Source: a virus. Taken from it: a DNA stretch of 31,461 bases. Below the pieces are notes generated by a model. It worked only from the letters and a program-made list of their open reading frames with translations, searched no databases and was not told where the DNA came from. Shown here one piece after another: positions 2,391 through 31,461 of this stretch. The position numbers and the translations under genes were made by a program. The stretch lies in IMG/VR virus record IMGVR_UViG_3300025849_000140, positions 1 to 31,461 of that record. One strand, written 5' to 3'. The number at the start of each line of letters is the position of its first letter. The first letter of the stretch is position 1.

Positions 2391-4211
2391 TTATTTTAAG
2401 AAAGTGTATATTTCTATGAGTTCTTCTTTACCCTTAACTTTGATGTCCCCAATTTTACGTGATACCGTGTCGGTCAATTGGTCTTTGGTGTGACTTGAGT
2501 AGATGGTCGGGAAGTCTTTGTATTCCCCTCGTGCAGCTGTTGCTTCCAATCGTGCGGCAAGGTTTACTGCGTCACCGATAACTGAATAGTCAAATCTGGA
2601 CTCAGAACCCATATTGCCAACAATACAGTCTCCGGTATTAATGCCAGTACCAACATTGATGTCAGGAAGACCTCGCCTTTTGTAAGTTTCCTTGAGTTCA
2701 TCTGTTTTCTCCTCTATTTCTTTGGCGGACTTCACTGCCATGTCTGCGTGGTTCTCACAGGGTACTGGTGCGTTCCAGAACGCCATGATACAGTCACCCA
2801 TGTACTTATCGATAGTACCACCGTTGTTTAAGATAATCTGTGTCATCGCATCTAGGAACTCATTGACCAACTCAACCAATCCTTCGGGATCATCGTTGTT
2901 CTTGTAGTGTTCTGAGATCGGAGTGAAGCCACATATATCCATAAATAAGAACGACATCTCCTTACGTTCGCCCCCCAGTTTCAAAAGTGATGGATCCTTC
3001 TGAAGCATATATACCATGTCCGGAGATAAATATGTCCCGAATTGTTTTTTTACTTGCTCTTTTAATTTGTATGTGGTATAATACTGATTAAAAGACGATT
3101 GCCCAAATACAAGGAACCCCGCAATTGAGACCCAAACGATATCCAGTACAAAATAAGAATTACTCCAGACGATCCACGATATTATCGGGACGCTTGAAAG
3201 AAACAAAATCGAACTTATCACCCCAACAACTGTGGGAAATCTATAGACCGATACAAGGATTCCTAGACACACTACCAGAATCGAAATCACTTCAACTATT
3301 AGACTCCAGTCGGGCCTCTGTATTTGAACACCTGAAAGAACGGTCTGAATTTGATGACCTTGAACTTCGTGGGGATACACTGCACCCGTTGGGGTTGCGA
3401 CTGGATTAGCATAACCCTCTGCTGTTACACCAAGAATTGCTATCTTACCTTCGGGTATGGGGTCGAGTATACTCTGAGACTTAAAGTCGTGCCAGAACGC
3501 AACAGGCAACTCTGATGACGGCTCTGTGACCAAAGGATCCTGTTTACCCAGTCTTATCCACTCTACACCGATAGAATTGTATTTTACGGTGTAGGATGGT
3601 TCCCCTATCCACACCCTAACGGCGTCTAACCCAAGAGAGGGATACGCTTGTCCGTTGATGCTTACCATTAATGGTGTCCGTCTGAGAACACCTGTGGGTT
3701 GATCGACTTCAGCGGATACTGCACCCACTCCCATACTCATCTGTGCGAGTTCCGGTATAGGTACGAGTATACCACTGTAGTCAATTAGTGTATCTTTAGG
3801 TTTACCAAATGTGGATACGTTGGCATATATCCCTAGATCATTCGTAGTAGTTTGGCGTGTAGGTGCGCTTGATAGGATTACAGGTTTTAGGGCGATCGAT
3901 TCTGATAGTTCCTTGTCCCCTGCAAACCGATCTGGTTCTGACCATATCATTGTTGATACTAACAGAGAATTGGGTGGTGACTGGTTGATATACTTGGCGA
4001 TTGTCTTTCGCGGCCACGGGTATTGTCCTTCCTTATTAATTGCTTCTTCATCTATGTTTACCAATACAATATCGTCTATCGAGATAACCTCGTGACTTTG
4101 TTGTAGTTGATCGTAGTATGCGTATTGCAACGACTTAACAATGTCGATCTGCGATACTTTTAAAACCGCGAACAGAATGATCACGGGGATGACGCTATAC
4201 CACTTTGTCAT
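2391..4211 (-). CDS. CHASE2-domain class III adenylate cyclase, 606 aa
   Basis: This is a receptor-type enzyme predicted to make cAMP from ATP at the inner membrane. Seen in order: one membrane segment (residues about 7-22); a periplasmic CHASE2 domain (about 40-290, with the typical IVLVNIDEEAI and YPWPRKTIA signatures); three membrane segments (about 303-321, 327-348, 352-370); and a C-terminal class III cyclase domain (about 416-606). Both metal-binding Asp are present (D425 in FMDICGF and D473 in KYMGD), as are the purine-selecting Lys469, a Ser at the second selectivity position (543, equivalent to Thr/Asp in adenylate cyclases, Cys in guanylate cyclases), and the transition-state Asn550 and Arg554. 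The domain therefore looks active and ATP-specific. The start at ATG 4211 overlaps the stop of the second curlin gene (ATGA). It is the last gene of the curli-FecR block. A bacterial origin by transfer is likely. The periplasmic ligand is unknown. Confidence 0.93.
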   Translation of the reverse strand: MTKWYSVIPVIILFAVLKVSQIDIVKSLQYAYYDQLQQSHEVISIDDIVLVNIDEEAINKEGQYPWPRKTIAKYINQSPPNSLLVSTMIWSEPDRFAGDKELSESIALKPVILSSAPTRQTTTNDLGIYANVSTFGKPKDTLIDYSGILVPIPELAQMSMGVGAVSAEVDQPTGVLRRTPLMVSINGQAYPSLGLDAVRVWIGEPSYTVKYNSIGVEWIRLGKQDPLVTEPSSELPVAFWHDFKSQSILDPIPEGKIAILGVTAEGYANPVATPTGAVYPHEVQGHQIQTVLSGVQIQRPDWSLIVEVISILVVCLGILVSVYRFPTVVGVISSILFLSSVPIISWIVWSNSYFVLDIVWVSIAGFLVFGQSSFNQYYTTYKLKEQVKKQFGTYLSPDMVYMLQKDPSLLKLGGERKEMSFLFMDICGFTPISEHYKNNDDPEGLVELVNEFLDAMTQIILNNGGTIDKYMGDCIMAFWNAPVPCENHADMAVKSAKEIEEKTDELKETYKRRGLPDINVGTGINTGDCIVGNMGSESRFDYSVIGDAVNLAARLEATAARGEYKDFPTIYSSHTKDQLTDTVSRKIGDIKVKGKEELIEIYTFLK

Positions 4212-4951
4212 TGTTGTGTTATTGTAACAGAACACCCACCTACTGTCAAGCAATTTTGCTGTAAAGTATAGGATGCTGTTGAATTAAATTGTTTGAGTGT
4301 TAGATCAGTACCATATGTACCGTCAAGTTCTATGGTCGCTGTGTGGGTTGCTCCATTACCTTTCTGACGAATGAACACATCGTTCTCGTCATTGTAGATT
4401 GTAAGGTCTATCGTCTTGCCACCATCATGCTGTTGAATTGCAGTGACCTCATTATCGTCACCTGCTAAGTGTAGTCCAAATGAATGACCATTATTTCCCG
4501 CGTTACCTTGGTTTGTTTGTTGAACCGAAACACCGTTGTTGTCTCCGTACATGGTTAGATCAACGGAATGTCCACCTGCTTCCCAATTATCATACCAATA
4601 GTCGTGGTTAGTATAACTCTCTGCATAATCGAATGCACATCCTTGACAGATCTTTACACCATTCCCAGTACCAGATAACTCATCTAAGGTTATCGTGTTT
4701 TCATCATTATCACCTTCGTTGTACTGTATGAATAACAGTCCACTATAAGTTGTCGTATTGAATGAGTTGGCATCCAACATCTGTATAACGTTCTTAGCGC
4801 CTACCTGTTCTATACCTAAACTGAGATTAGTACCAGACTGATCTAGCTGGATTTCGTTGTCCGCCTGTAACGGATTACTGAAGAAACATATTAGACAAAT
4901 GAAGACTATGGCCATTAGGAATGTGTTTCTGAATTCGTTGTCGTCTTTCAT
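4208..4951 (-). CDS. Secreted curlin-repeat protein (CsgA/CsgB-like), copy 2, 247 aa
   Basis: A hydrophobic signal segment (about residues 12-28, ending NPLQA) precedes a mature chain that opens DNEIQLDQSG and carries recurring units of the curlin type: alternating hydrophobic strands ending in Gln/Asn with Gly-Asp-Asn turns (YGDNNGVSVQQ, AGDDNEVTAIQQ, NDENDVFIRQ), roughly 25-28 residues apart. Curlin repeats stack as amyloid beta-solenoids outside the outer membrane. Unusual points are an aromatic insert near residues 109-126, two Cys pairs (about 102/105 and 234/240), and the terminal TITQQ. I start at ATG 4951; a TTG at 4957 is less likely, and ATG at residue 13 is a possible alternative. 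Which of the two curlins is nucleator and which is the bulk subunit cannot be told. It lies between FecR and the cyclase. Confidence 0.8.
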   Translation of the reverse strand: MKDDNEFRNTFLMAIVFICLICFFSNPLQADNEIQLDQSGTNLSLGIEQVGAKNVIQMLDANSFNTTTYSGLLFIQYNEGDNDENTITLDELSGTGNGVKICQGCAFDYAESYTNHDYWYDNWEAGGHSVDLTMYGDNNGVSVQQTNQGNAGNNGHSFGLHLAGDDNEVTAIQQHDGGKTIDLTIYNDENDVFIRQKGNGATHTATIELDGTYGTDLTLKQFNSTASYTLQQNCLTVGGCSVTITQQ

Positions 4952-4953
4952 AT

Positions 4954-6096
4954 TCAATTACTCTGTCGTATTACCACCAAAATGTCATCACCACCGTCTG
5001 CGGTGATTATCCCTGCGTATCCATCTACCTCAGTATCTAGTCTTATACTACCTCCGGTTAAGAAGTTCAATGCGATAACACCATTTACATCACGGTAGAA
5101 GACTATACCATCGTCTTCTTCGAAGACTGCGTATTGACTGTCTTTGTTCATACCCCATTTAGCACCTACCAACCGTATTGGGCCAGTACCTCGACCATCT
5201 TGCATATCTTCGAGTTCGCCCATAGTGCGTACTAATGCTTCTACTTCATCCAGTAGATCCACTAACAAGTCTGCACCAAGTGCGTCATAGTCTAGTCTGG
5301 TAAAAATTTCTTCACCACCAGCATAATCATCATATGTCTTTTCTAGTTCATCAAACTCAAGAAAATCTGCGTCCAATGAACCCATGTCAACTTCAGCATC
5401 ATCTAACAATTGTTCCTGTATCGCCTGTTCCACTTCATCGGGTGGACTAACAATAAACATATTGTCGATTGACGATGCCGTTATATTCTCGATGACCACA
5501 GTTCTGGTCGGAGGCGAATCTAGACTAGAAACCATTGTTGTCGCATACGCTTGGGTAAGAGTAGTTGAACCAGCATTATTAGATACTACAATCTCGCCCG
5601 ATGGATTACCATCATCGTCAGGCAACAATATAACCAGAGTCCGACCTAACTCATCGATCGTTGTAGTAAAATCCGTTCCACGTACAGCAATCTGTGCGGT
5701 GGGCGTGGATATGTCGATATTCTTCTTATCGACCATCCCTAATCGCCCAGACGCAAACCGAGCAGTTCCAAGTGCCATCTTCATGACCATCTTGGACTTG
5801 CTCGGATCGGGATCGTAATACACCTTGTCGATAAAGACCTTGGTGTGTTCGATGAGACTAAGTTCCGCCTCATCTTTGAACTTAATTAACATCCTACCCC
5901 TGGCAGTCTGAGCAGTATCATTAAGTTCTATAATCGTACCAACTTCTGACGATATGAGATCCCTCTCACGCAGAATAGAACCCTCTCCTTTGGATTCCAC
6001 AATATCTCCGATAGTGGCCGCCGTAACGATCCCTATCGAAAATATTCCACTAACTATCGCCGGCAGTATCTTTCTGATTAATCTGTATGGTTGCAT
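4954..6096 (-). CDS. Exported FecR-domain protein, 380 aa
   Basis: An N-terminal basic and hydrophobic signal peptide (residues 1-27, ending VTAA) is followed by a FecR domain (about 60-165). Its recognisable features are TARGRMLIKFKDEAELSL, the GTARFASGR turn and the STPTAQIAVRGTDFTT signature, where secreted FecR proteins have tPtavvgVRGTdf. No C-terminal membrane anchor or cytoplasmic anti-sigma tail is present, so this is the free periplasmic type rather than a FecR sigma regulator. The middle is acidic and helical (about 220-300), and the C-terminal 75 residues form a beta-rich tail I do not recognise. The start ATG at 6096 lies 47 bases inside the end of the curlin gene, so the two genes are coupled; a GTG at 6162 is rejected because it would bury the signal peptide. 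A partner role for CHASE2 or for curli is inference. Confidence 0.87.
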   Translation of the reverse strand: MQPYRLIRKILPAIVSGIFSIGIVTAATIGDIVESKGEGSILRERDLISSEVGTIIELNDTAQTARGRMLIKFKDEAELSLIEHTKVFIDKVYYDPDPSKSKMVMKMALGTARFASGRLGMVDKKNIDISTPTAQIAVRGTDFTTTIDELGRTLVILLPDDDGNPSGEIVVSNNAGSTTLTQAYATTMVSSLDSPPTRTVVIENITASSIDNMFIVSPPDEVEQAIQEQLLDDAEVDMGSLDADFLEFDELEKTYDDYAGGEEIFTRLDYDALGADLLVDLLDEVEALVRTMGELEDMQDGRGTGPIRLVGAKWGMNKDSQYAVFEEDDGIVFYRDVNGVIALNFLTGGSIRLDTEVDGYAGIITADGGDDILVVIRQSN

Positions 6097-6772
6097 TGTC
6101 TGATGTAATATCCAAGATAATGATGCCTTTACAACTAGTGATTCCCTGCGGACACGTACCACTCAACTGATTGATGTCGATGTCTGCATTGTCTCCGTCA
6201 AACTCAACTGTTTGCGTTTGGTAAAAACCATCATTCTGTAAAGATTTAATGTTATTATCGTCACCAGTAATATCCCAGTTCCAAGTAACATCATCTGTCT
6301 CTACATCAATGTCAAAAACATTAGATGATCCGAGAACGGTGAGGTCTAAATCTAAACGTTCCGAAGATGCAGCTGCACCTTGATCGAAATCGATAGTATT
6401 AGAATCACCAGTCATAGTGATATCCATTGTTGTTGAATCCGAAGATCCTACGTCACCGATTAAGTAATCAAGTACGTTAGCATCACCCGTCCACAATAAG
6501 TTATACGTAGAACTGTTCGATGTCAATGTACCGAATAACAAGTTCTCGTTACCCACTTGATCGATGTTAAATGTTAGTGAGGTACCAGTGATTGGTGTTG
6601 CTCCAGATGAAGTCTCGAAGTTATCCAATCCAATTTTGTTACCATAACCTATTTGATCAATATAAAGGGTTAATGTATTACCCGATTGATCGATGTTGAT
6701 TTCATTATCGTCAGACGCTGTACCAAAAGCAAAACTAGAAAATAGCGCTAGTCCTAATAAGTACTTATTCAT
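6050..6772 (-). CDS. Secreted curlin-repeat protein (CsgA/CsgB-like), copy 1, 240 aa
   Basis: A signal peptide (about 1-20, FSSFAFGTAS) leads into DNEINIDQSG, then IDQIGYGNKIG and IDQVGNENLLF, close to the curlin pattern of Gln and Asn in hydrophobic strands joined by Gly turns. Further degenerate units follow (TGDANVLDYL, TGDSNTIDFDQG, GSSNVFDID, TGDDNNIKSLQ, GDNADIDINQ). The mature protein is very acidic and low in Lys/Arg, as expected of an amyloid exported unfolded through CsgG. A Cys pair lies at 207/214. The first residues of the mature chain closely match copy 2, so the two are paralogues. The ATG at 6772 has AGGAG nine bases upstream and overlaps the end of csgG by 8 bases. The assignment as a structural curli subunit is inferred from repeats and neighbours. 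Confidence 0.82.
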   Translation of the reverse strand: MNKYLLGLALFSSFAFGTASDDNEINIDQSGNTLTLYIDQIGYGNKIGLDNFETSSGATPITGTSLTFNIDQVGNENLLFGTLTSNSSTYNLLWTGDANVLDYLIGDVGSSDSTTMDITMTGDSNTIDFDQGAAASSERLDLDLTVLGSSNVFDIDVETDDVTWNWDITGDDNNIKSLQNDGFYQTQTVEFDGDNADIDINQLSGTCPQGITSCKGIIILDITSDNATIQINQKDTAGDS

Positions 6773-7682
6773 CTTTTTCTTCTCCTATCGGGTGACCTTC
6801 GTTTGTCCCATCATGTTGATGGGGGTGACGATGACCTTGCCCTACTTTCCAAAGACCTCTATCGTGCCCTTGGTATATTAGTTCCAGTACTCCCGCTTCA
6901 ATAGCCGTTCGTACCGCATAAGTCACTGACTCATTATTTCCCACTCCGTCCTCATACTCCACCAGCTGTGTGCCTTGTTCATAAAATCTAAACAAGTCTC
7001 CACCCGCGCCATAACTAAGTATCGTCTTAGTACTTTGAACGTTCAACAAAACTTCTCCCGTCAGAACAGAAACTGCCCTGATAGAAACCGTCACAATATC
7101 TTTACGATACTGCCTAGAAAATCCGATACCTAATGTTCTAGCACCTCGTCCTCCAGTTTGGATATTGGTATCATAACCAATAATACCACCTTCGATAATC
7201 ATACCAGCAAAGAGCAAAGGCCCTATACTACCGGACTTCTCGTCAGAGTATTCTTTACGGGTTGATCGAACAATCTGTCTTTCCCTTACTAGATTATCGA
7301 TGCCCTGTCTCTCTACTACACGGAACCACTTACCCTGTGATGCCGTCTTGAGAGCGTCTATTAATAACTCGGTTCCCCCTTGAGAAACCGCAGTACTGAA
7401 GTCCGCAATCCCATCGCGAGCCTTCCTTTGACCAGTCAGATCCTTAAACCCATACACCGCTACGACTGGCATATTCTTTGCCGGTGGTACGTTGAGCAAA
7501 TCAACATATGCCGGTAACTTTACTACTGTGGGTTCATCTACGCAAATATACTTGCGAGACATAACCTTGTCTAATCCATTGTTCGTACCACACTCTTGTG
7601 GATTTTCTGACCATTGCGGTATCTGAGCGCAACCTGTCAGAAATACGACACATAATAAGAGTAGATGCAATTTACGTACCAT
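6765..7682 (-). CDS. csgG: Curli secretion channel lipoprotein CsgG, 305 aa
   Basis: CsgG forms the nonameric outer-membrane pore through which curlins leave the cell. The protein begins with a lipoprotein signal peptide (LLLLCVVFLTGC; lipidated Cys at residue 18). It then tracks Escherichia coli CsgG through the whole domain: DFSTAVSQ at the pore constriction loop (equivalent of NFSTAVPQ), WFRVVERQGIDNLVRERQI, a GSIIGYES-like GGIIGYDTN, GGRGARTLGIG, STGEIL-like LTGEVLLNVQSTKTILSYG, and the terminal AIEAGVLELI with DRGLW. Length is slightly above the 277 aa of E. coli CsgG because of a C-terminal tail rich in His (HRHPHQH), absent from the bacterial protein. ATG 7682 is chosen because it gives a proper lipoprotein signal; it overlaps csgF by 11 bases. 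The pore-lining Phe is kept, and the adjacent Asn is Asp here. Confidence 0.95.
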   Translation of the reverse strand: MVRKLHLLLLCVVFLTGCAQIPQWSENPQECGTNNGLDKVMSRKYICVDEPTVVKLPAYVDLLNVPPAKNMPVVAVYGFKDLTGQRKARDGIADFSTAVSQGGTELLIDALKTASQGKWFRVVERQGIDNLVRERQIVRSTRKEYSDEKSGSIGPLLFAGMIIEGGIIGYDTNIQTGGRGARTLGIGFSRQYRKDIVTVSIRAVSVLTGEVLLNVQSTKTILSYGAGGDLFRFYEQGTQLVEYEDGVGNNESVTYAVRTAIEAGVLELIYQGHDRGLWKVGQGHRHPHQHDGTNEGHPIGEEKDE

Positions 7683-8172
7683 CACCACCGTCACTCCCTC
7701 CGTCTGTACCGAAGTTACCCGTTCCAACAGGTATTTCGATCACGGTCTCAGTTCCATCTGTATCGATGATAGTCATCTTGATGTAATCTTCGCCCGCTTC
7801 ATTGGTGAGTACCTCGTATGACACAACTGATCCCTCAAGAGTAAATGACCCAAAGGTTACTGCGTTTTCGTTGCTGAACATATTGTCCACCAACTGTTTA
7901 GATAGTTGTGCATAGATTCTACTCTCTAGATTACGTATGAACTTTGCCAACGTTGTATTGTCGGCTGCTCGTTCTGCCGCCTTCCGTGCAGCCTCTAACG
8001 CATCTTCGATAGATTCTTTTCTACTGTGTTCTTGGTTTTCAATAGTGAGATAATGCGAACCAGTTCCTACACCACTGAATGACGGGTTCTTAAATGCATG
8101 TGTTATCTCTGATGCCGCCAATGGTGACATCATCATTAAAACAAAGAAACTACTTATTAGTTGTTTTATCAT
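7672..8172 (-). CDS. csgF: Curli assembly factor CsgF, 166 aa
   Basis: CsgF sits in the CsgG channel at the cell surface and positions the nucleator. Here a cleavable signal peptide (about 1-20, MMMSPLAAS) is followed by EITHAFKNPSFSG. This corresponds to the start of mature E. coli CsgF (MTFQFRNPNFGG), the segment that inserts into the CsgG pore. After an Ala/Glu-rich helix (about 52-72) come FIRNLESRIYAQLSKQLVDNMF and a beta C-terminal half (YEVLTNEAGEDYIKMTIIDTDGTETVIEI), which also match the family layout. A Gly/Asp-rich tail is extra. The gene directly precedes csgG, the same order as csgF-csgG in enterobacterial curli operons. The ribosome-binding site is weak, and the gene overlaps its upstream neighbour by 23 bases, suggesting translational coupling. 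Confidence 0.9.
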   Translation of the reverse strand: MIKQLISSFFVLMMMSPLAASEITHAFKNPSFSGVGTGSHYLTIENQEHSRKESIEDALEAARKAAERAADNTTLAKFIRNLESRIYAQLSKQLVDNMFSNENAVTFGSFTLEGSVVSYEVLTNEAGEDYIKMTIIDTDGTETVIEIPVGTGNFGTDGGSDGGDGT

Positions 8173-8428
8173 TTCGGTCTATCTGCTCTCGCTGTTGTAA
8201 TATCATATCTAACTTTGTACGCAACCGAATCAAATCATTGTCGAGCATTCTTACTCGATCGATCAACTGAATCAATGTCATGTGCGACTCTTCGATCACT
8301 GGATCTACATGGTCGGTAACCCAGTGCCAAACATAATAGATGAAGTACCCTAGTCCTATACAAGCGATGATAGGGAACCCATATGTGTTTATCATGTCCA
8401 CAATATTTAGGGACTCTATTGTCTCCAT
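8150..8428 (-). CDS. Small membrane protein with coiled coil, 92 aa (paralogue A)
   Basis: One membrane segment (about 15-37, beginning GFPIIACIGLGYF) is followed by a charged amphipathic helix predicted to coil (about 45-80, with LIQLIDRVRMLDNDLIRL). It resembles the next gene upstream in the GFPI start of the membrane segment and in the N-(D/E)-L-(I/V)-R-(I/L) motif of the coil, so the two look like duplicated partners. No characterised family is recognised. The ATG overlaps the preceding stop by one base (TAATG), and the gene overlaps csgF by 23 bases, so it belongs to the curli block. A role as holin-like protein, energiser or scaffold is possible but unsupported. Confidence 0.75.
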   Translation of the reverse strand: METIESLNIVDMINTYGFPIIACIGLGYFIYYVWHWVTDHVDPVIEESHMTLIQLIDRVRMLDNDLIRLRTKLDMILQQREQIDRNDKTTNK

Positions 8429-8706
8429 TAATCTTTCCTCGAATCCTTTTGTCCATCGGCCCTAGACAATCTGTCTAGGTCTGGACGTAAGTCAAAGGAA
8501 TGAGATATCAATAGATCAATGCGAACCAACTCATTGTTCATTGTTTTTATTCTGTTTTCCAAACTCAATACAAATCCACGTTGGGTCTTGATGTTAGTCA
8601 AGGCACCATCCAGTATAAATTTTAAAGTTAGGAATACGAAAAATCCTCCGGCGAGTGCGGAGGCGATAGGGAATCCAACGTCCATGACGCTTAGAAATAA
8701 ATCCAT
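8428..8706 (-). CDS. Small membrane protein with coiled coil, 92 aa (paralogue B)
   Basis: First gene of the late block. A hydrophobic segment (about 11-33, from GFPIASALAGGFFVFL) is followed by a helical, charged region (about 40-70, including ENRIKTMNNELVRIDLLI) and a basic tail. Architecture and length (also 92 aa) mirror the downstream paralogue. The ATG at 8706 has an AAGGT ribosome-binding site and lies about 33 bases downstream of a T4-type late promoter box. I know of no defined function; its constant position ahead of csgF and csgG suggests it belongs to the same machine. Confidence 0.75.
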   Translation of the reverse strand: MDLFLSVMDVGFPIASALAGGFFVFLTLKFILDGALTNIKTQRGFVLSLENRIKTMNNELVRIDLLISHSFDLRPDLDRLSRADGQKDSRKD

Positions 8707-8738
8707 CGTAATACCTTCAAATCAAAAGACTGTGAAAG

Positions 8739-8746
8739 TATTTATA
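8739..8746 (-). promoter_or_regulatory. T4-type late promoter (TATAAATA) of the curli-FecR-cyclase block
   Basis: TATAAATA on the minus strand (8746-8739) is an exact match to the T4 late promoter box read by gp55-loaded RNA polymerase. It lies in the only intergenic gap of this region, and the predicted start leaves a leader of roughly 25 bases before the ATG at 8706. gp55 itself is encoded in this window. Confidence 0.8.
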
Positions 8747-8754
8747 CATCTAGT

Positions 8755-8994
8755 CTATTTAATATCTCGTTTTTCGACTAATTCGGTGAATATATCCCAC
8801 ACTTTCTGGAACTTTAGTTCATAAGTCTTCTTCAGACCAAGATATTGGTTCATAAGTTCGTCTTGATACTCGGCATCGCCACACTTATTCGTCCACTTGG
8901 GATCATCTACGAAGTGACAAGTGGTCTCTTCTAAATCATCTAATAATAACCAACATCGCATTATTGCATTTTCTAAATCAAATCTATCGCTCAT
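8755..8994 (-). CDS. Conserved-looking small phage protein, 79 aa
   Basis: A soluble, helical, acidic protein beginning MSDRFDLENAIMRCW, with Cys/Trp-containing helices; no catalytic motif is visible. I associate this N-terminal wording with a small conserved protein of T4-like cyanophages, function unknown, from memory only. The start at ATG 8994 forms an ATGA overlap with the upstream stop; a longer start at 9009 would lie inside the previous gene. It is the last gene of the early unit, ending eight bases before the late promoter box, with no terminator between, so early transcripts may read into the curli block. Confidence 0.7.
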   Translation of the reverse strand: MSDRFDLENAIMRCWLLLDDLEETTCHFVDDPKWTNKCGDAEYQDELMNQYLGLKKTYELKFQKVWDIFTELVEKRDIK

Positions 8995-9218
8995 TCTATA
9001 ACCTTCCAATCCGTTATTGTTTTCACATCAATAGTTTCCCATCGTCTGCCTACGGTATCAAAGAACGCCAGAACACCATTGTCTTTTTGTTGTTTCAATG
9101 ATGTGGGGGTGGCAAGTAAAGTGTAATTAGAACACAATTCTTCACCTGTTCTATAATGTTTAAACGTAATATTCACTACACCTTTATATGCAGCGTTAAG
9201 TAATTTATCAGTGTCCAT
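8991..9218 (-). CDS. DUF2693-like (SH3 barrel-type) small protein, 75 aa
   Basis: The layout resembles the small DUF2693 family: a helix with LLNAAYKGVVNITFKH, a beta hairpin, a variable loop and a final WETIDVKTITDWKVIE. These proteins are common in T4-like phages and are predicted to fold as a small beta barrel; no activity is known. The start ATG at 9218 has GAGGAA ahead of it and immediately follows the stop of the SGNH-like gene. No membrane segment or signal peptide. Confidence 0.6.
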   Translation of the reverse strand: MDTDKLLNAAYKGVVNITFKHYRTGEELCSNYTLLATPTSLKQQKDNGVLAFFDTVGRRWETIDVKTITDWKVIE

Positions 9219-10007: not shown

Positions 10008-10361
10008 TTATTTTCCGCTATTCGAATCGTGAACGTGCAATGCGATTAACGCATAGTGAAGTACCTTCATTATATCATCACGGTTGTGGCCGTTCTTGTG
10101 ACCATATCGTTGTGTATACTTGAGTATATTACCAAGAGTAAACCCGATACCATGCCCGCCATCAATGATGAACTCAGTCGCTTGAAATTTGTTCTTTGAA
10201 TAGTGTTGATCATATGTTTTATTGACGTATTGAAGTAGTTCATCTAGATTCTCCTTTTCATTATATTTATACTCCACGGGGGACGTAAACTTAAACTCGA
10301 CTTTATAGTCTTCGTCAGCTACTGTCCAGTTATCATCATCGTAATATTCAGATCCAGCCAT
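10008..10361 (-). CDS. DUF3310-like protein, 117 aa
   Basis: The C-terminal half, FTLGNILKYTQRYGHKNG followed by DDIMKVLHYALIALH, matches the DUF3310 signature (a Gly-Asn-x-x-KY-x-x-R helix, then Lys, then an Asp-x-x-K-x-x-x-Y helix) seen fused or adjacent to nucleotide kinases in phages. Function is not established. The N-terminal 60 residues are acidic and Tyr-rich. ATG 10361 is preferred over TTG 10379 and GTG 10373; it follows the oxygenase gene's TGA by four bases. A TATAAATA sequence at 10271-10264 lies within the coding sequence (Glu-Tyr-Lys-Tyr codons) and is probably incidental. Confidence 0.65.
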   Translation of the reverse strand: MAGSEYYDDDNWTVADEDYKVEFKFTSPVEYKYNEKENLDELLQYVNKTYDQHYSKNKFQATEFIIDGGHGIGFTLGNILKYTQRYGHKNGHNRDDIMKVLHYALIALHVHDSNSGK

Positions 10362-10365
10362 TATT

Positions 10366-11040
10366 TCACTCACTCTCAATTTCTTCTATTAACATATCCC
10401 GCATCATCTGTGCGGAACGATCCTTTGTATCACCGTTTGCGATACCGTTATTTACAAACTTATATGCAAGGGTGATTCGTTCACCCCCAGCATACGCACT
10501 GTGCCAACATAGATTCTCTGGTTCTTTATCCGAACCAAAGTAGTAATGTCTACATTGCCAACCTTTTACATCGGGTATGGAAACTATCTCACCAGTCTTA
10601 TTATCTAAGTACCGGAAGAAACCACTACCATCACTCCATGTGAAAAGAATTTGGTATGCATTCGCATCATAGTTAGTGTGCCAACCTACGTACCCGCCAG
10701 GCGGATAGTAGGTCAACAGTGCGGACGTGTGTGCGCCTAATTCCTTTGCAAAATCATACTTGACCCTCTGTTTGTAGTCTGACCAAACTTCTGGATCTTC
10801 TTTACACATCTTTGCAATAGGTGAACCGAAGTATTTGTCGGGTGCGCCAACCAGACTATCTCGTGACAAACACTCATCCAGATACTCACGTTCACAGTAT
10901 TTTGTACCAGCCATTATACCATCTTCGTCATGGAATGTCCAGTACTTTCTTTGATCGTAATCCGGAGTAGACATCATCTCATCTGAGATACTATTCAAAC
11001 GATCTAAAAACTCCTGATTCCGAATTACGATCTCAGTCAT
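10366..11040 (-). CDS. 2OG-Fe(II) oxygenase-like protein, 224 aa
   Basis: A double-stranded beta-helix core is suggested by YYPPGGYVGWHTNYD (His121 and Asn123 at the place of the metal-binding HxD), then a second His180 in CWHSAYAGGERITLAY, with Arg188 eight residues on, as expected for the 2-oxoglutarate carboxylate. The first motif is therefore HxN rather than HxD. Either Asn coordinates iron weakly, or the protein has lost activity; I cannot decide. Marine T4-like phages carry several such proteins with unknown substrates. The start ATG at 11040 overlaps the previous TAA by one base. A second, canonical oxygenase is encoded at 28705-29415. Confidence 0.72.
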   Translation of the reverse strand: MTEIVIRNQEFLDRLNSISDEMMSTPDYDQRKYWTFHDEDGIMAGTKYCEREYLDECLSRDSLVGAPDKYFGSPIAKMCKEDPEVWSDYKQRVKYDFAKELGAHTSALLTYYPPGGYVGWHTNYDANAYQILFTWSDGSGFFRYLDNKTGEIVSIPDVKGWQCRHYYFGSDKEPENLCWHSAYAGGERITLAYKFVNNGIANGDTKDRSAQMMRDMLIEEIESE

Positions 11041-12488: not shown

Positions 12489-13897
12489 TAGTAATTAAAA
12501 TCCTTGAATTTGTTTTTCTCTGCACTCATTCGTTGGCCACTAGAAGTATTATCAAAGATTGGTTTATCGTCCCATCCTTTGTCTTGGTCATCATCGTCTA
12601 CTTCACTAGACTGATCACAATCAAATAACTTCATCTTACTTCTATCTACCCCTACCATAAATCGTTGATTTGAGGTCGGGTCATTGTATCGGTTCTTCAA
12701 CTGTTTGACCATGATCTTACCTTGGGCATTCAGTTCATCATTACTAATCAATGCAAACATAAAGTCTGCCGTAGCTGGTAGACCGAACGACTCAGACGTA
12801 TCTTCCAGACCGATGTCATCATTACCAAAACCAGAACGTGTGGTCTGTGTCGCAGATACGATAGGCACATTGAACTCAACTGCAAGACCACGTAACTCTT
12901 CTGCAATACTCTTGATATAAGAATAAGAATTAATTGCACCACCCATACCTTTCATACGAGACGAGGCACAGATGTTCAGATAATCGATGAACACGATATC
13001 TGGTACAAAGTTCTTCTTCAACTTCAACTCATTCATCAATGCACGGAAGTGATTCGCATGTGCTTGTCCAGTAGGATATTCCTTGATGATCAGTTTACCG
13101 TTGGTCTTGTCAGAGATTGCCTTGACTCGATCGGTGAACATAGTCTTGGATAGGTTCTCCAACTGATCGATCGCCACATCCATTAGGTTCGCATCAATAC
13201 GTTCTGCGATACGTTCCTCTGCCATCTCCATAGTGATGTACAATGCATTCTTACCAGCGGACAATGCAGCTCCCGCCACGTGACACATGTACAATGATTT
13301 ACCAACACCAGTACCAGCAAGGGCAATGTTCAGTGTCTTGTTAGGCAGACCACCCTTGGTGATCGCATTGAAGTACTCCAGATCAAACGGTAGACGTTCT
13401 TCTTGTTCGTGATAGAATGCGAAACGTTCTTCAACACTTTCAAGATAATCGTGACCCACGTTGGTATCAAACGAAACACCCAGTGCCTTACTCAATACAT
13501 CGGGGATCGCATTCTTGGATAGATCTTTGTGTTTACCATCAATGATAGAAATAGATTCCATCACCGCATTGTAGACCGCACGATCCTGACACCACTTCTC
13601 AGTAGTATCGATCAACCAATCTAGGTTCTCATCTTTCTTGGTGAATACATCGGGTAGGATTTCCATACCGTGACGGTACGCTTCATCACTGAGTCGATCA
13701 CCCTGATCTACCTCAATCTTGAATGCTTCCATAGTAGGAAGTTTGTTGTACTTCGCAATAAACAAGGTCAGTTCTTTGAACAAACCCTTGTACACACCCT
13801 CGAAGTAATTGGGTTCGAGGAAGGCCGCAACCTTCCTCATGTACTGGTCGTTAGTCAGCAGATTCCGTAGAATCGTTTGTTCTAAATTTATCTCCAT
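12488..13897 (-). CDS. 41: Replicative DNA helicase gp41 (DnaB-type), 469 aa
   Basis: The protein matches T4 gp41 along its length: N-terminal helical domain, the linker VGHDYLESVEERF (T4 VGHDWMDDYEARW), Walker A GTGVGKS, an ITMEMAEERIAERIDANLMDV stretch almost identical to T4, Walker B-type VFIDYLNIC, and the C-terminal LPATADFMFALI. It is the hexameric 5'-3' helicase that opens the fork ahead of gp43 and recruits primase. T4 gp41 has 475 aa, so 469 fits. I place the start at ATG 13897 (MEINLEQTIL), which aligns with T4's start; the open frame extends upstream but only as overlap with the previous gene. It overlaps that gene by 47 bases. Confidence 0.95.
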   Translation of the reverse strand: MEINLEQTILRNLLTNDQYMRKVAAFLEPNYFEGVYKGLFKELTLFIAKYNKLPTMEAFKIEVDQGDRLSDEAYRHGMEILPDVFTKKDENLDWLIDTTEKWCQDRAVYNAVMESISIIDGKHKDLSKNAIPDVLSKALGVSFDTNVGHDYLESVEERFAFYHEQEERLPFDLEYFNAITKGGLPNKTLNIALAGTGVGKSLYMCHVAGAALSAGKNALYITMEMAEERIAERIDANLMDVAIDQLENLSKTMFTDRVKAISDKTNGKLIIKEYPTGQAHANHFRALMNELKLKKNFVPDIVFIDYLNICASSRMKGMGGAINSYSYIKSIAEELRGLAVEFNVPIVSATQTTRSGFGNDDIGLEDTSESFGLPATADFMFALISNDELNAQGKIMVKQLKNRYNDPTSNQRFMVGVDRSKMKLFDCDQSSEVDDDDQDKGWDDKPIFDNTSSGQRMSAEKNKFKDFNY

Positions 13898-14216
13898 AAG
13901 TATCATCCATCTCAGCAGTTTGCAATGTTCCATTGTGGTACGACTTTTCGAGTACGTCCTCAAGGATATCAGCGGCGGTATTTTGTAAATCAATATCTGT
14001 CGTTTGGAGATCTGGATCTGGTGATGAGACAATGAAGAAGTTGAACTTCAAACATTTTTCTGCACCATCAAAACTTACATTACCATAACGAATAACTGTC
14101 TCGACATAGTCTCCACGTAGGACACGAATGTCCCACGCTTGTTCATTGTCAGCGTCAGCGGGGATCAACTCATAGTCAATCCCCTCACTCATTTTTTCAA
14201 TATCTATATCACGCAT
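13851..14216 (-). CDS. Conserved-looking acidic phage protein between uvsX and gp41, 121 aa
   Basis: Begins MRDIDIEKMSEGIDYEL and contains YVETVIRYGNVSFDGAEKCLKFNF, then an acidic helical tail. I recognise the wording as a small protein commonly found beside uvsX in T4-like marine phages, but no function is known. The placement between the strand-exchange protein and the helicase suggests a recombination or replication accessory role, which is inference. ATG 14216 has GAAGG five bases upstream, inside the end of uvsX, with an 8-base overlap. Confidence 0.7.
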   Translation of the reverse strand: MRDIDIEKMSEGIDYELIPADADNEQAWDIRVLRGDYVETVIRYGNVSFDGAEKCLKFNFFIVSSPDPDLQTTDIDLQNTAADILEDVLEKSYHNGTLQTAEMDDTYGDKFRTNDSTESAD

Positions 14217-15243
14217 CGCCTTCGACCATTATATCAAATTCCACCTCAGAAGGCAAGCCTATCTGGAATTGTTTCTTCAGAAAATCTTTGAAATCGGTAT
14301 TCGCAAAGATCGGAGTCCAAAAATCTTCCTCGAGCGTTTCTTTCTGTCGGAACTTCTTGTCCTCACCATTTCGTGAGTACCAACCATTACTTGGTTTGAC
14401 AACATATCCACCGGCCAATGCCACGTCCAATAGACCAGACCACTTCTGAACACCACCGTCCCACGATACACTGATCGGAATCTTGGACTGTTCTTTGGTG
14501 TAACGTGACTTGTCCACCTTGATCACAAAGTCATAACCAGTCACTTCAGTACCAGTCTTGTTCTGTCTACGGCCGATAATCCAGATGTTGTCGGCACTAT
14601 AGTAGATACCAGTACCACCAGACACCACGTCTTTAGGGAACAGACCGATCTCTTTGTACGTATGGTTGATCGCAATCATTGGGATCTTCTTCATATTCAG
14701 ATACGGTGTAGTCATACGGAACAGAGACTTGAACGCCTTCGCACGTGACATATCTGCAACCGACTTCTCATTGATCGCATCGTCAAGTTCTTTCTTAGAT
14801 GCAAGGTTACCGACCGAATCGATTACAATGATTACATCGTCCTTCTCATCCAGTGCTTCCAACTGGTTGATAAGGTCAAACTTCAACTGTTCTACATCCT
14901 TGATCGGACAATGTAGTACACGGTCAGTAGGAATACCGAACTGTTCGAAGTATGATTGCGGAGAACCGAACTCGGAATCATAGAACAACATCACTGCATC
15001 TTTCTTCTTTTCAAGATAAGCGCCTGCCATTAATAACGCAAACGAGGTCTTGAAGTGTTTACTAGGCCCTGCAAGTACGGTCAACCCAGGCGTAACACCA
15101 CCCTCAGTAGACCCAGACAATGCCACGTTGATCATCGGCACGTCAGTAGGAACCATGTCCACTTCTTGAAAGAACTTACTATCTTGTAGGATCGCAGTCT
15201 CTTTAATCTTAGACTGTTTCCTCAGTTTATCCATCACACTCAT
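14209..15243 (-). CDS. uvsX: RecA-like recombinase UvsX, 344 aa
   Basis: UvsX catalyses strand invasion in T4-type recombination-dependent replication. The protein follows T4 UvsX closely: PMINVALSG near the N-terminus, Walker A GPSKHFKTSF (T4 GPSKSFKSNF), LFYDSEFG, Walker B VIIVIDSVGNLASKK, MTRAKTMKSLFR-like MSRAKAFKSLFR, IAINHTY, and GLLDVALAGGYVVKPSNGWY. It is shorter than T4 UvsX (391 aa), lacking most of the acidic C-terminal tail; that tail tunes DNA binding in T4. ATG 15243 overlaps the stop of the dehydrogenase gene (ATGA); a second ATG three codons later is possible. Confidence 0.96.
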   Translation of the reverse strand: MSVMDKLRKQSKIKETAILQDSKFFQEVDMVPTDVPMINVALSGSTEGGVTPGLTVLAGPSKHFKTSFALLMAGAYLEKKKDAVMLFYDSEFGSPQSYFEQFGIPTDRVLHCPIKDVEQLKFDLINQLEALDEKDDVIIVIDSVGNLASKKELDDAINEKSVADMSRAKAFKSLFRMTTPYLNMKKIPMIAINHTYKEIGLFPKDVVSGGTGIYYSADNIWIIGRRQNKTGTEVTGYDFVIKVDKSRYTKEQSKIPISVSWDGGVQKWSGLLDVALAGGYVVKPSNGWYSRNGEDKKFRQKETLEEDFWTPIFANTDFKDFLKKQFQIGLPSEVEFDIMVEGDA

Positions 15244-16214
15244 TCATCATCTCCAAATGTTATATTGTTAACTTTCTCTCGATCATCTTTCTCATACCCT
15301 TTACGATAACCATTATTAATTCGAATGACTTCTTTAATCATATCGAAACATACTACATTATCACCCTCACCCATTTCCGAAAACTTTAGGAAAGCAGCGA
15401 TATCTTTGGGGAAACACGCACCCCCGAATCCACGTTTACCATCATAGCCAGGCACTCGTGTATGTCCAACACCAACCCGTTTGTCAGCACCCATCGCACG
15501 GGTGATTACATTGTAACTACACTGGTACGAATTAACCAGATCATAGAACTGATTGAAGAACGTTACCTTAGTTGCTAGGAAAGTGTTCACCCCGTACTTA
15601 ACGAATGATGCCTCATGGGCAGACATACGGAAATACTTAGTAGATTCACATAGACTGAATACTTCGTACATGTTAATCAAGTCAGTAGTGGCAGAATCTG
15701 CACCACCGAATACATGAAACTCTGCGTTGACGAACTGTTCTTCGGCCGCCTTCTCGGTCAGAAACTCTGGATTGTAGATAAGACGATTGACCGCCTCATC
15801 ATTCATACTGTTCATCAAACGATCTACCACGTCTGGTGTAATTGTTGATTTGATAACAATTAACGAACCAGTATGGTTTGCAAGTTTCAGTACAGCTTCT
15901 TCTACAATAGACGCATCTACCGTATGGTTCTCACTCATAGGTGTAGGCGCACAAATGAATACTACATGTGCGTCCCATTCCAATAGATCATCTACAGTTG
16001 TCCCTACCTTGGGATCTGCGATTCTCTTCTCGACCAGTGGATGTGTAAATGCGTAGTCTACCGCCCTACCGACAAACCCGTGACCGACAATGCCCAATCG
16101 AAACTTATTGATTGGACTGATCGGTTGGGTGTGATGGGGTGCAGGCACATCACTGATCTTCCTACCCGCACGTTTAGTTGTTTCGGGTAGATACTTGTCA
16201 AAATCATCTGCCAC
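15240..16214 (-). CDS. UDP-glucose/GDP-mannose dehydrogenase-like protein, 324 aa, short C-terminus
   Basis: Members of this family oxidise a nucleotide sugar twice with NAD, for example UDP-glucose to UDP-glucuronate. The N-terminal Rossmann motif is LGIVGHGFVGRAV (after a 37-residue basic extension). FICAPTP, IKSTITP and LIYNPEFLTEKAA follow, and the catalytic segment GFGGACFPKD carries the nucleophilic Cys and the Lys. The protein then ends about 50 residues later, so most of the C-terminal UDP-binding domain of the usual 390-430 aa enzyme is missing; either a partner supplies it or the enzyme is specialised. GTG 16214 is chosen because GGAG is well placed; it overlaps the epimerase gene by 11 bases. 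The downstream epimerase activity next door suggests UDP-glucuronate as product. Confidence 0.85.
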   Translation of the reverse strand: MADDFDKYLPETTKRAGRKISDVPAPHHTQPISPINKFRLGIVGHGFVGRAVDYAFTHPLVEKRIADPKVGTTVDDLLEWDAHVVFICAPTPMSENHTVDASIVEEAVLKLANHTGSLIVIKSTITPDVVDRLMNSMNDEAVNRLIYNPEFLTEKAAEEQFVNAEFHVFGGADSATTDLINMYEVFSLCESTKYFRMSAHEASFVKYGVNTFLATKVTFFNQFYDLVNSYQCSYNVITRAMGADKRVGVGHTRVPGYDGKRGFGGACFPKDIAAFLKFSEMGEGDNVVCFDMIKEVIRINNGYRKGYEKDDREKVNNITFGDDE

Positions 16215-17145
16215 TATGATACTCCTTATACCACTTATAAAAGTTAGCGACACCAGTCTCAATATCTGTTGTTGGTTTATAACCAAGTGATTGCAACTTC
16301 TCAGTGTTACTCCAAGTCTCTAGAGTATCTGCGGGATGTCTAGGTGCAAGATTTACTTGCGCCTCATGTCCCACATTGTCACCGATCGCTTTCACAAAAT
16401 CCATCAGATCAACCTGTGCGCCATAACCAATATTAAAGATTTCGTTCGACTCAATGTCATCATTCTGTAGGATGATCTCAACCCCATCAATGATATCTTC
16501 GACATAAGTGAAGTCTCTTTTCATATTACCGTAATTATACACGTCTATGCTCTGATTGTCAAGCGTTTTCTTTGTAAATTGAAACAGTGCCATATCTGGA
16601 CGACCCCAAGGGCCATAGACAGTGAAGAAACGGAGACCCACATTGCGGACTCCAGATATAGCAAACTGTAACTCGTTGATGTACTTCGTATACGCATATG
16701 CATTACGTTGTTTAGCGGTGGTCAAATCTTCTGTCCAACCTTCATCCGGAATAGGAGTTTCACCATACACCGAACTTGTAGATGCATAGACTATGCGTGT
16801 AGTCGTACCCTTACAGATCTCAATGAGATTCTGAGTACCATCAATATTGTTAGAATGATACGCACGTTCCTTACCGAACGAATCTCTCACGCCCGCATGG
16901 GCGGCAAGGTGAACGATCTGATCAGGTTTAAACGTATCAATAATATTCTTGGTTGTGTCGTAGTCCCGTAGATCACATACTTTGATGTCTAACTCAAAGT
17001 GTTGAGTCCGGTCTACCTTTAGTTGCGGTTCATACAAATGGTCATTGTAGTTATCAATTCCCAGTACTTTGGCGCCTTTACTTCTCAATCTGTTCATTAA
17101 TTGCGAACCGATGAAACCAGCTGCACCTGTGATTAAAATTTTCAT
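16204..17145 (-). CDS. NAD-dependent sugar epimerase, UDP-glucuronate 4-epimerase-like, 313 aa
   Basis: An extended short-chain dehydrogenase: NAD motif TGAAGFIG (residues 6-13), YASTSSVYGE, and catalytic Tyr150-x-x-x-Lys154. The segments GIDNYNDHLYEPQLK and FFTVYGPWGRPDMALFQFT with NYGNMKRDFTYVEDI are those I associate with UDP-glucuronate 4-epimerases, which make UDP-galacturonate. Paired with the dehydrogenase downstream it could turn host UDP-glucose into UDP-galacturonate, for LPS or capsule change or for phage glycosylation; the end use is inference. ATG 17145 has AGGA upstream. An exact consensus sigma70 promoter is embedded in its coding sequence at 16534-16562. Confidence 0.88.
   Translation of the reverse strand: MKILITGAAGFIGSQLMNRLRSKGAKVLGIDNYNDHLYEPQLKVDRTQHFELDIKVCDLRDYDTTKNIIDTFKPDQIVHLAAHAGVRDSFGKERAYHSNNIDGTQNLIEICKGTTTRIVYASTSSVYGETPIPDEGWTEDLTTAKQRNAYAYTKYINELQFAISGVRNVGLRFFTVYGPWGRPDMALFQFTKKTLDNQSIDVYNYGNMKRDFTYVEDIIDGVEIILQNDDIESNEIFNIGYGAQVDLMDFVKAIGDNVGHEAQVNLAPRHPADTLETWSNTEKLQSLGYKPTTDIETGVANFYKWYKEYHSGR
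16534..16562 (-). promoter_or_regulatory. Intragenic sigma70-type promoter within the epimerase gene
   Basis: TTGACA (16562-16557), a 17-bp spacer and TATAAT (16539-16534) on the minus strand match the consensus exactly. The spacer ends GTG just before the -10, like several intergenic promoters here. It lies in coding sequence (codons for Leu-Asp-Asn-Gln to Val-Tyr-Asn) and would transcribe the dehydrogenase, uvsX and gp41. Its activity is not proven. Confidence 0.65.
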
Positions 17146-17154
17146 TATACCGTC

Positions 17155-18096
17155 CTATCCGTTTCTATAAACATATTCTAATGCCCTGTCTGCCTCTTTG
17201 ATAAGAGGTCTGTTCTCATACCAGTTACCTGTCTCCGAATCAAACTGTTGACACATTTCTGCGATCTCGTTTGCGGAGATTGGATACCCTTTACTTATAG
17301 CATGGCCAGCTATCGCAACCATGATTTGATACATCTTGTGATACCACCCCGTACCAGATATTGCACGGTACTCAACCCCCAAACGTTTTGGAAAGAACGG
17401 ACAATCGTGGTAACTCGACCAATTGAAATTGGTATTGTCCAGTTGATCTTTACGGTGTTGTATTACCGCCTTCTGCATTTCTTCGGGTAGTCTATCTAAG
17501 AAACTACTCCCAGACTTAACTTCATACTTATGAGTGGCCATAAGTGAATCAGTGTTAATAGTATCGCCACTATGACTAAAGTAAAAGTTATTTGCATTAG
17601 GATAGTCCGCAGGAACGTAATACATTCTAGCGAGATCCTTAGTCTGTGGATCTCCGATGTCTCCAAGTTCTTTATTGAGTGCGTACCAGAAGTGTTTGAT
17701 TCTATCTTGCGGTATAGCGTTGTCAAGATCGAATACAAGTCTGAACTTCGGTTGATCATTCTTCGAACTAGCAGTACTATAACAAATGAAAGACCAACGA
17801 CCAAACCTATCAACCAACTCATTTTTTACCCCCTCTATGGATGTATCAGAAAAGGTATAATCATCAACATCGACAGCACACCAATTGCCCCAATGAGTAA
17901 CAGATTTATTACTACGTGTAGTACCTTCCTGAAACATAGCAGGAGTAATAAGAGGACTAGAGTTTCTACCACCTTTTTCACCTTTTTGATTTGAGAGCCC
18001 AAACAACAACTCATCGAACTCATCCCAAGATTTTACTGAGACGGTTCGATGCGTTTTGTTGTCAAACTGATTTTTAAATATAGTTAATTCGTACAT
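17155..18096 (-). CDS. Primase-like protein of the archaeo-eukaryotic primase (AEP) type, 313 aa
   Basis: The core region resembles AEP/primase-polymerase N-terminal domains: WCAVDVDDYTF (residues 72-82; Asp76 and Asp78 as the catalytic DxD), a strand-turn ICYSTASSKNDQPKFRLVF (about 104-122), in which STxS matches the sTxS motif, and DLARMYYVPADYPNAN. A C-terminal helical domain (from about 240) contains MYQIMVAIAGHAISKGY and could be the primase C-terminal domain. No zinc finger or Toprim domain of a T4 gp61-type primase is seen. It is the first gene after gp43, with its own promoter, so a role in priming is likely but unproven. ATG 18096 is the only good start. Confidence 0.65.
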   Translation of the reverse strand: MYELTIFKNQFDNKTHRTVSVKSWDEFDELLFGLSNQKGEKGGRNSSPLITPAMFQEGTTRSNKSVTHWGNWCAVDVDDYTFSDTSIEGVKNELVDRFGRWSFICYSTASSKNDQPKFRLVFDLDNAIPQDRIKHFWYALNKELGDIGDPQTKDLARMYYVPADYPNANNFYFSHSGDTINTDSLMATHKYEVKSGSSFLDRLPEEMQKAVIQHRKDQLDNTNFNWSSYHDCPFFPKRLGVEYRAISGTGWYHKMYQIMVAIAGHAISKGYPISANEIAEMCQQFDSETGNWYENRPLIKEADRALEYVYRNG

Positions 18097-18104
18097 AGGT
18101 ACCC

Positions 18105-18134
18105 ATTATAACACAGCATGATATAGTTTGTCAA
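18105..18134 (-). promoter_or_regulatory. Sigma70-type promoter of the primase-like gene
   Basis: TTGACA (18134-18129), an 18-bp spacer ending GTGT and TATAAT (18110-18105) on the minus strand, starting three bases past the stop codon of gp43 and reading into the gene at 18096. It probably drives the operon down to uvsX and gp41. Confidence 0.82.
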
Positions 18135-18137
18135 GCA

Positions 18138-20609: not shown

Positions 20610-20634
20610 ATGGACTCCTCATAATGTAGGTGGT

Positions 20635-20663
20635 ATTATAACACAGCTGGCCGGTATTGTCAA
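20635..20663 (-). promoter_or_regulatory. Sigma70-type promoter of gp43
   Basis: TTGACA (20663-20658), a 17-bp spacer ending CTGTGT and TATAAT (20640-20635) on the minus strand, exact consensus. The -35 box contains the TGA stop of the glycosyltransferase-like gene upstream (20662-20660). Confidence 0.88.
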
Positions 20664-21529: not shown

Positions 21530-21544
21530 AACAACCTTATGAAG

Positions 21545-21568
21545 AAGAGGGACATTGCTGTCCCTCTT
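21545..21568 (-). terminator. Strong hairpin between the 37-aa gene and the glycosyltransferase-like gene
   Basis: A perfect 10-bp stem (21545-21554 with 21559-21568) around a TTGC loop. In the minus direction it is followed by CTTCATAAGG, only weakly U-rich, so it may attenuate or protect RNA rather than terminate fully. It lies between the late hsp20 unit and the downstream gene. Confidence 0.5.
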
Positions 21569-21573
21569 GGGTT

Positions 21574-21687: not shown

Positions 21688-21703
21688 ACTTAACCTCGAA
21701 AAA

Positions 21704-22120: not shown

Positions 22121-22184
22121 ATTGTTTCTCCAATATATTATTGCAAGAGTTATACGGGTACCGAACCATTCGCATACCCGCCGT

Positions 22185-22192: not shown

Positions 22193-22235
22193 CTTAGTAA
22201 TACTTTTGTTAGACGTTATAACTAAAAGTAATGAC

Positions 22236-23143: not shown

Positions 23144-23168
23144 TTTAGAGACGCTCCATTCTACGATA

Positions 23169-25968: not shown

Positions 25969-26646
25969 TTATGCTCCATACTTAGAAGTTTTTTCGAGTG
26001 CAATGAAGTACTCAATTTCTGATTGTTGTGACTTGAACTGCGAGATAAGTTTCTTACTCATTCTTACGGTAAAGTCTTCGTTTACTACTTTAAGGTTATT
26101 CACATTCATAATGAAGTTGAACGGTGTTTCACTATCATACGTACCTTCCACGTCAATGGAAAATGCGTTGGATGTGGCATCTTTACTATCAATAACAGAT
26201 AGTCGAACCGCACCACTTGCAGGCGTAATCGAAATCTCACTGTGACCCAACACAGATGCCGCACGTTTGACTTTTGATAACGTGTCTATATCTAGTGTAA
26301 ACGTAACGTCTGCTTCAGGCATGATGATATCCTTGGTAGGAGTGGTCAACATGTCTCGGTCAGTATAGTAGTACTTGATCTTACTACGACCAGTAGAGTC
26401 ACCTACGTTCACATAGTGTTCAGCGAAAGATAGATTAGGTTTGTCAACCAATGCCAGTACAGACAAGAATTCGTTGAGGTCGTAGATACCAAAGTTATTT
26501 GGCATGATCTCTTCGATAGATGTCTGCGACATTACGTTGCGGGCAACAGAGATAGTCTTGAGGTTTTGTCCCTCAGAGAATACGATGTTGGGGTTGATAC
26601 TCGCATAGTTCTTGAGTACTGTAAGAGTTTTATCAGATAGTTCCAT
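25969..26646 (-). CDS. 45: Sliding clamp gp45, 225 aa
   Basis: Processivity clamp for gp43 and co-activator of late transcription in T4. The chain matches T4 gp45 (228 aa): MELSDKTLTVLKNYASIN (T4 MKLSKDTTALLKNFATIN), NFGIYDLNEFLSVLALV, and FNFIMNVNNLKV (T4 FNFIINMANMKM) at matching positions. ATG 26646 has AGGAA upstream and a promoter about 37 bases further up. Because late promoters of T4 need gp45 as activator with gp55, this gene is relevant to the late boxes found at 8739 and 22185. Confidence 0.94.
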   Translation of the reverse strand: MELSDKTLTVLKNYASINPNIVFSEGQNLKTISVARNVMSQTSIEEIMPNNFGIYDLNEFLSVLALVDKPNLSFAEHYVNVGDSTGRSKIKYYYTDRDMLTTPTKDIIMPEADVTFTLDIDTLSKVKRAASVLGHSEISITPASGAVRLSVIDSKDATSNAFSIDVEGTYDSETPFNFIMNVNNLKVVNEDFTVRMSKKLISQFKSQQSEIEYFIALEKTSKYGA

Positions 26647-30861: not shown

Positions 30862-31461
30862 CTATACCATATGATCACTGAGATCAGAATCAACATTGAC
30901 TGCACGTCTCTTACGTTGTTTCTTCTCGTCTTTCGCATATTCTTTAAAGTCGGCATCTGCGTTCTTTACTACATCAATACGTTGTCTGAGTTGATCAACA
31001 AATGGGAGTACATTACTATGGTCAGTGAATCCGTTGTCATCATTCAAATCTAGGAACTGCTCGATACCCGCCTCTGCGATATACTTCATCTTGATATCTT
31101 GTTGACGTTTCTCACGTTGGATTCTGCGGAGGAAGGCGTACCACGTAATCTGTGTGAAGTATGCGAATGCATTTGGTTTACCAGATCGTGTTGCAGCCTC
31201 TAGGTTGTAGTTCTCGATCGCCTTTAGACAGTTCTCTACCGCATCCATTACCATCTCTTCACGGTAAGTGTATCGGACAAAGTTCGCCTTGTGGGACAAT
31301 CCTTCACTAATCTTTAGGAAACAACTGGCAATGTAATCCGGAACAATGGGTTTCGGTTTCCCTGCTTCCTTACACATTCGTGCATGACTAACATAAGTCA
31401 CGACTGCCTGAGAGAACTCAGCGTTGTTTACGTAATGCGGTTTTTCTTTAGGTTTAACTTT
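30862..31461 (-). CDS. 55: Late-transcription sigma-like factor gp55, 5' end beyond the window
   Basis: gp55 gives host RNA polymerase specificity for late promoters of TATAAATA type. The frame is open to the right edge and reads KPHYVNNAEFSQAV there, where T4 gp55 has KYNYVNNKELLQAI, so only a few residues are missing. Later segments also agree: AFAYFTQITWYAFLRRIQREKR (T4 [23 protein letters not shown]). A basic patch (KKQRKRRAV) and an acidic C-terminus follow. A GTG at 31401 is not the start because the upstream residues match the family. The stop lies 11 bases before the tRNA. Its presence gives meaning to the two late promoters in this window. Confidence 0.93.
   Translation of the reverse strand, partial: KVKPKEKPHYVNNAEFSQAVVTYVSHARMCKEAGKPKPIVPDYIASCFLKISEGLSHKANFVRYTYREEMVMDAVENCLKAIENYNLEAATRSGKPNAFAYFTQITWYAFLRRIQREKRQQDIKMKYIAEAGIEQFLDLNDDNGFTDHSNVLPFVDQLRQRIDVVKNADADFKEYAKDEKKQRKRRAVNVDSDLSDHMV

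Follow-up and report, generated by a model that had tools for sequence, protein, structure and literature searches.

Introduction

Curli genes are widespread among ocean phages, where they are so far unexplained. The phage curli cluster itself has already been described (PMC7029224, PMC9599517, PMC9004378), and searches for late promoters in pelagimyophages were reported to be unsuccessful (PMC7029224). In the passages of PMC9599517 and PMC9004378 consulted, no promoter analysis of the cluster was found. A transcriptome of pelagiphage infection (PMC12753301) was considered and set aside: it deals with HTVC022P and HTVC027P, which are podophages, and its text does not mention curli genes. T4 late promoters have a set geometry, the first T of their box being position -13 (PMC2988020).

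Here we describe a curli/FecR/cyclase block in a stretch of 31,461 bases (the window) originating from a marine, T4-like phage of pelagimyophage type. Judged from its sequence and from that of its relatives, the octamer TATAAATA at 8739-8746 is with high likelihood a T4-type late promoter giving one polycistronic mRNA for the eight genes of the block.

The window and its gene content

All main genes of the window are carried on the minus strand. Both the late sigma factor and the sliding clamp on which T4-type late promoters depend are encoded:

30862..31461, minus strand: gp55 late sigma factor (phrog_234, E=2.6e-50), cut by the record end
25969..26646, minus strand: gp45 sliding clamp (phrog_223, E=3.3e-68)

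Pelagibacter phage HTVC008M and Methylophilales phage Melnitz carry an annotated gene for the co-activator gp33; the window itself is a fragment. Also encoded are gp44, DNA polymerase, UvsX, a DnaB-type helicase, ThyX and Hsp20. The strong sigma70-like sites of the window precede replication genes, and in the region 12500-31461 all nine sites scoring 11-12 out of 12 are found on the coding strand, with an ORF beginning shortly after six of the nine. An earlier note on this DNA had proposed that the genes to the right of the block rely on sigma70-type promoters, and these nine sites support that view.

The block itself (8706-2391, minus strand) consists of eight overlapping genes:

8428..8706, minus strand: orfA, 92 aa, phrog_18771, one hydrophobic N-terminal segment
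8150..8428, minus strand: orfB, 92 aa, paralogue of orfA, phrog_18771, weak match to a holin profile (phrog_4898, E=0.0057)
7672..8172, minus strand: CsgF homologue (PF10614, E=7.3e-16)
6765..7727, minus strand: CsgG homologue (PF03783, E=5.1e-51)
6050..6772, minus strand: curlin-like protein (PF07012, E=0.0026, below the cut-off; annotated as curlin-associated in HTVC008M and Melnitz)
4954..6162, minus strand: FecR-domain protein (PF04773, E=1.6e-7)
4208..4957, minus strand: second curlin-like protein, assigned by position (weak PF07012 match, E=0.099, below the cut-off)
2391..4253, minus strand: CHASE2 and adenylate/guanylate cyclase domains (PF05226, E=8e-28; PF00211, E=8e-18)

Of the components of curli (type VIII secretion) systems, CsgG and CsgF are recognised by Pfam, and ten proteins scanned from the block and its surroundings gave no match to the CsgE gate or the CsgD regulator. 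The gene order is the same as that annotated in HTVC008M and Melnitz, and in the latter the syntenic counterpart of the second curlin-like gene is annotated as a curlin repeat protein. Six homologues of orfA and orfB gave no match to the Pfam holin families, so that membership in a curated holin family is not assigned, the phrog_4898 match of orfB being the only one of this kind. In podovirus versions of the cluster a "histidine kinase" gene, sometimes two, always precedes CsgF (PMC9599517). In the window this position is held by orfA and orfB, whose products of 92 aa with one hydrophobic segment are too short for a kinase; the label may be doubtful, if those podovirus genes correspond to orfA and orfB. 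A sigma70-like site ahead of the cyclase gene (4249-4221) falls in the last part of the coding sequence of the curlin-like gene before it. Where the two genes are separated, the site remains with this last part, and it is thus probably a coincidence.

A probable late-promoter box ahead of the block

The block is preceded by a gap of 48 bases (8707-8754, 71% A+T), bounded by ORF 8755-9009 on one side and by the ATG at 8706 on the other. The following elements are relevant:

8739..8746, minus strand: late-promoter box (-13 to -6), an exact TATAAATA, conserved ahead of the block
8733, minus strand: predicted transcription start (A, +1), placed by T4 geometry and by the purine-rich +1 of related phages
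8714..8718, minus strand: Shine-Dalgarno-like GAAGG in the leader
10264-10271, minus strand: third exact TATAAATA, inside ORF 10008-10379

Counted from 8733, the leader would be 27 nt long, with GAAGG placed 7 nt ahead of the orfA start codon. Both the exact box in the 48-base gap and the statement that this is the only gap there were contained in the earlier note and proved accurate, the box lying on the coding strand and all eight downstream genes overlapping. The third box was rejected as a promoter; it falls within an ORF and appears to be conserved together with its codons. Loci L012, L020 and L021 have a box at the matching distance, probably through codon conservation as well.

Enrichment in the window was dropped as proof, since the three matches found, against 2.02 expected, are at chance level (35 of 100 shuffles reach three). 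The chance of one match on the coding strand of the gap is approximately 0.1-0.8%, for a gap that was chosen post hoc. The box at 8739-8746 is therefore taken as real on account of the comparative evidence from relatives and not of the count in the window.

Related loci, which are not phylogenetically independent of each other, were gathered by CsgG similarity; 76 of the 80 had orfA and enough upstream DNA to be examined. Their gene starts were assigned from homology and the closest ATG. In 50 of these 76, TATAAATA is present no more than 80 nt from orfA; 15 control gene starts in the same loci, of block genes and of neighbours, lack it throughout. Clustering on the upstream sequence gave 32 clusters, 20 of which had the box, compared with a mean of 0.67 and a maximum of 4 in dinucleotide shuffles, and the next best of the other octamers of A5T3 composition reached four clusters. 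Comparison of upstream boxes in relatives carrying the block had been suggested as a check on the promoter, which thereby came through it. The box is constant while its flanks and spacing vary: relatives of the window have it at -37 to -48, where the leader usually contains a Shine-Dalgarno-like sequence, another group has it at -27 and a large third group at -13/-14. The remaining 26 loci have no box at orfA. In HTVC008M the box is located one gene further upstream and another one precedes CsgF.

Association of the motif with known late genes

For calibration, HTVC008M and six long related records were analysed over their full length. In most related phages TATAAATA strongly favours the coding strand (for example 24 vs. 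4, 33 vs. 8 and 22 vs. 3). It is present within approximately 90 nt of 48 out of 165 late genes, including gp18, gp20, gp25, gp2, gp4 and gp48, vs. seven out of 121 replication genes (Fisher p ~3e-7, for genomes related to one another), and most of these seven are hsp20. Where a box is followed by a long leader, the position 13 nt from its first T is occupied by A in 68% and by G in 19% of the cases (C 0.00), and the base before it is T in 52%. This purine-rich composition indicates that the T4 start-site geometry has been kept in the related phages. The window has a box ahead of hsp20, too:

22185-22192, minus strand: second conserved late box, upstream of hsp20 (21704-22120) by 72 nt

The same box is present upstream of hsp20 in records G002-G005 and in HTVC008M. 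The hsp20 leader (window 22121-22192, minus strand) can form a hairpin; in relatives both sides of its stem are altered (6 of 10 pairs, five sequences). A search of this leader against Rfam gave no match; it is possibly a structured RNA on a small heat-shock gene.

Loci without the box and the linkage to endolysins

Loci without a box at orfA were judged if their upstream sequence extended over 1.3 kb or more. All of them except L017 have a gene for a lysozyme or an M15 endolysin in these 1.3 kb, and frequently a gene of 81-90 aa comes next and abuts orfA. In most of these box-less loci a late box leads the string of genes, commonly 26-32 nt before a gene of 87-88 aa. This 87-88-aa family heads late strings containing lysozyme and curli genes, for example at L044:4974-5237. 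Altogether an endolysin gene lies within 1.3 kb upstream of the block in 36 of 67 loci, 17 of which also have the box at orfA. The upstream M15 protein belongs to the endolysin family phrog_894, and an example of the other type is as follows:

L044:6117-6581: free-standing T4-lysozyme-like endolysin, 154 aa (PF00959, 5e-7; T4 lysozyme, ~1e-14)

In the clade of the window the M15 endolysin is located elsewhere and does not adjoin the block. The idea that box-less loci belong to podoviruses devoid of gp55 is unsupported, as DNA_pol_A was detected in none of 28 records and the box-less G007 and G013 encode gp55.

Spacing between the box and the start codon

When seven genomes were pooled, the distance between the first T of TATAAATA and an ATG was exactly 13 nt in 29 cases, against a background of approximately 4-5 at any other position, and control motifs showed no peak at 13. 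A stricter count considered only ATGs opening frames of at least 50 codons. By this count spacing 13 was observed for 5 of 21 boxes in HTVC008M, 4 of 41 in G003, 4 of 34 in G004 and 3 of 34 in G005, and among known phages for 0 of 32 in T4, none in S-PM2 and Syn9, and 2 of 16 in P-SSM4; spacing 12 was never seen in this count. The genes gp25 and gp2 show the 13-nt spacing in several diverged genomes, and further examples are found at L123:7549-7564 and L123:6267-6282. With +1 at 13 nt, the start codon would be formed by the first three bases of the mRNA. Box geometry thus predicts that late mRNAs in many relatives are leaderless, while the box of the window's own block has a normal leader. Early promoters were considered in the same way (TATAAT 13-14 nt from ATG) and showed no genome-wide spacing peak. 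No report on leaderless late genes in T4-like phages was found in the literature searched, most subscription journals lying outside the search.

Timing and possible role of the block

We infer a start site at 8733, late timing and a single mRNA. According to this model, host RNA polymerase carrying the phage sigma factor gp55 and activated by the gp45 clamp would initiate at approximately 8733, and the resulting polycistronic mRNA would span the whole curli/FecR/cyclase block, which is very probably a late operon. The conserved box, the association of the motif with late genes and the presence of gp55 and gp45 in the window all back the initial proposal that the curli, FecR and cyclase genes are made late.

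Our preferred, still tentative, reading of its role is that the block is a last-stage module of the cell envelope acting with lysis. It was put forward because in relatives the block comes immediately after a gene for a T4-lysozyme-like or M15 endolysin, and because the genes following the lysozyme encode small one-helix membrane proteins. The upstream lysozyme has no obvious signal peptide and would therefore need help in crossing the inner membrane. The orfA and orfB products are candidate holins or holin partners, for which a Pfam holin match is absent. A lysis role has been proposed before on the basis of thyX synteny, a riboswitch and a pore model (Buchholz et al., PMC9004378). The earlier note held that late expression narrows the role to assembly, lysis, virion surface or a change of the host surface. 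The box alone does not narrow the function in this way, since hsp20 has one among the replication genes; better support for such a narrowing comes from the endolysin linkage.

It is also quite conceivable that the block is late and has a job outside lysis. The dying cell might then bear curli-like fibres or an open CsgG pore, which would serve to capture siblings, to exclude other phages or to take up nutrients. The type VIII secretion set looks complete (CsgF, CsgG and two curlin-like proteins) and is accompanied by FecR and the cyclase, and hypotheses of this kind have been published (PMC7029224, PMC9599517). Late timing would, however, leave fibres little time to benefit the infected cell, clumping was absent in Melnitz infections (PMC9004378), and the endolysin linkage in relatives points elsewhere. 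The lysis reading can be extended to a lysis-linked late module made of a repurposed curli channel, two holin-like proteins, a membrane cyclase and an endolysin, in phages with many leaderless late mRNAs; this combined picture is speculative.

As to timing, the late box might be real and the block be made earlier as well, by read-through from the upstream replication unit. All genes are on the same strand, and a convincing terminator is absent between ORF 8755-9009 and the block. Overlapping early and late promoters are known in S-PM2 and Syn9 according to a review (PMC2984593), and read-through would parallel what was proposed for the "middle" genes of marine T4-like phages without MotA/AsiA. 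On the other hand, the 300 nt upstream of orfA contain no sigma70-like site of at least 11/12 in any of the 76 loci, and relatives with differing upstream genes retain either the late box or the endolysin link, for which reasons such early plus late expression appears unlikely. That the box is a chance match in an AT-rich gap, as the near-random count in the window might suggest, is extremely improbable given the cluster counts and the empty control gene starts, and is refuted as far as sequence allows.

The conserved late promoter would indicate when the curli genes of these phages are made, and the endolysin linkage suggests a partner for them. Hypotheses on fibres, uptake, exclusion and lysis thereby turn into a question of timing and knockouts in culturable phages. 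The leaderless late mRNAs, if true, occur in very abundant marine phages.

Comparison with known systems

The curli block is published; its late promoter, the endolysin linkage and the leaderless geometry were not encountered in the literature searched. The cluster of pelagiphages and Melnitz (PMC7029224, PMC9599517, PMC9004378) has the gene order of the window block, namely small membrane proteins, CsgF, CsgG, curlin-like, FecR, curlin-like and cyclase. With the late promoters of T4 (PMC2988020) the block promoter shares the exact 8-bp TATAAATA, a purine at the +1 position, which lies thirteen bases from the first T, the lack of a nearby sigma70 site, and a phage encoding gp55 and gp45. Unlike in T4, the box here would drive an accessory curli/FecR/cyclase operon among replication genes, and in relatives of the window it often lies exactly 13 nt from the ATG. 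The late motif NATAAATA of cyanophages S-PM2 and Syn9, members of the same family Kyanoviridae, is nearly identical (PMC2984593); the 13-nt spacing between box and ATG, in contrast, is absent in these two phages and occurs twice in P-SSM4.
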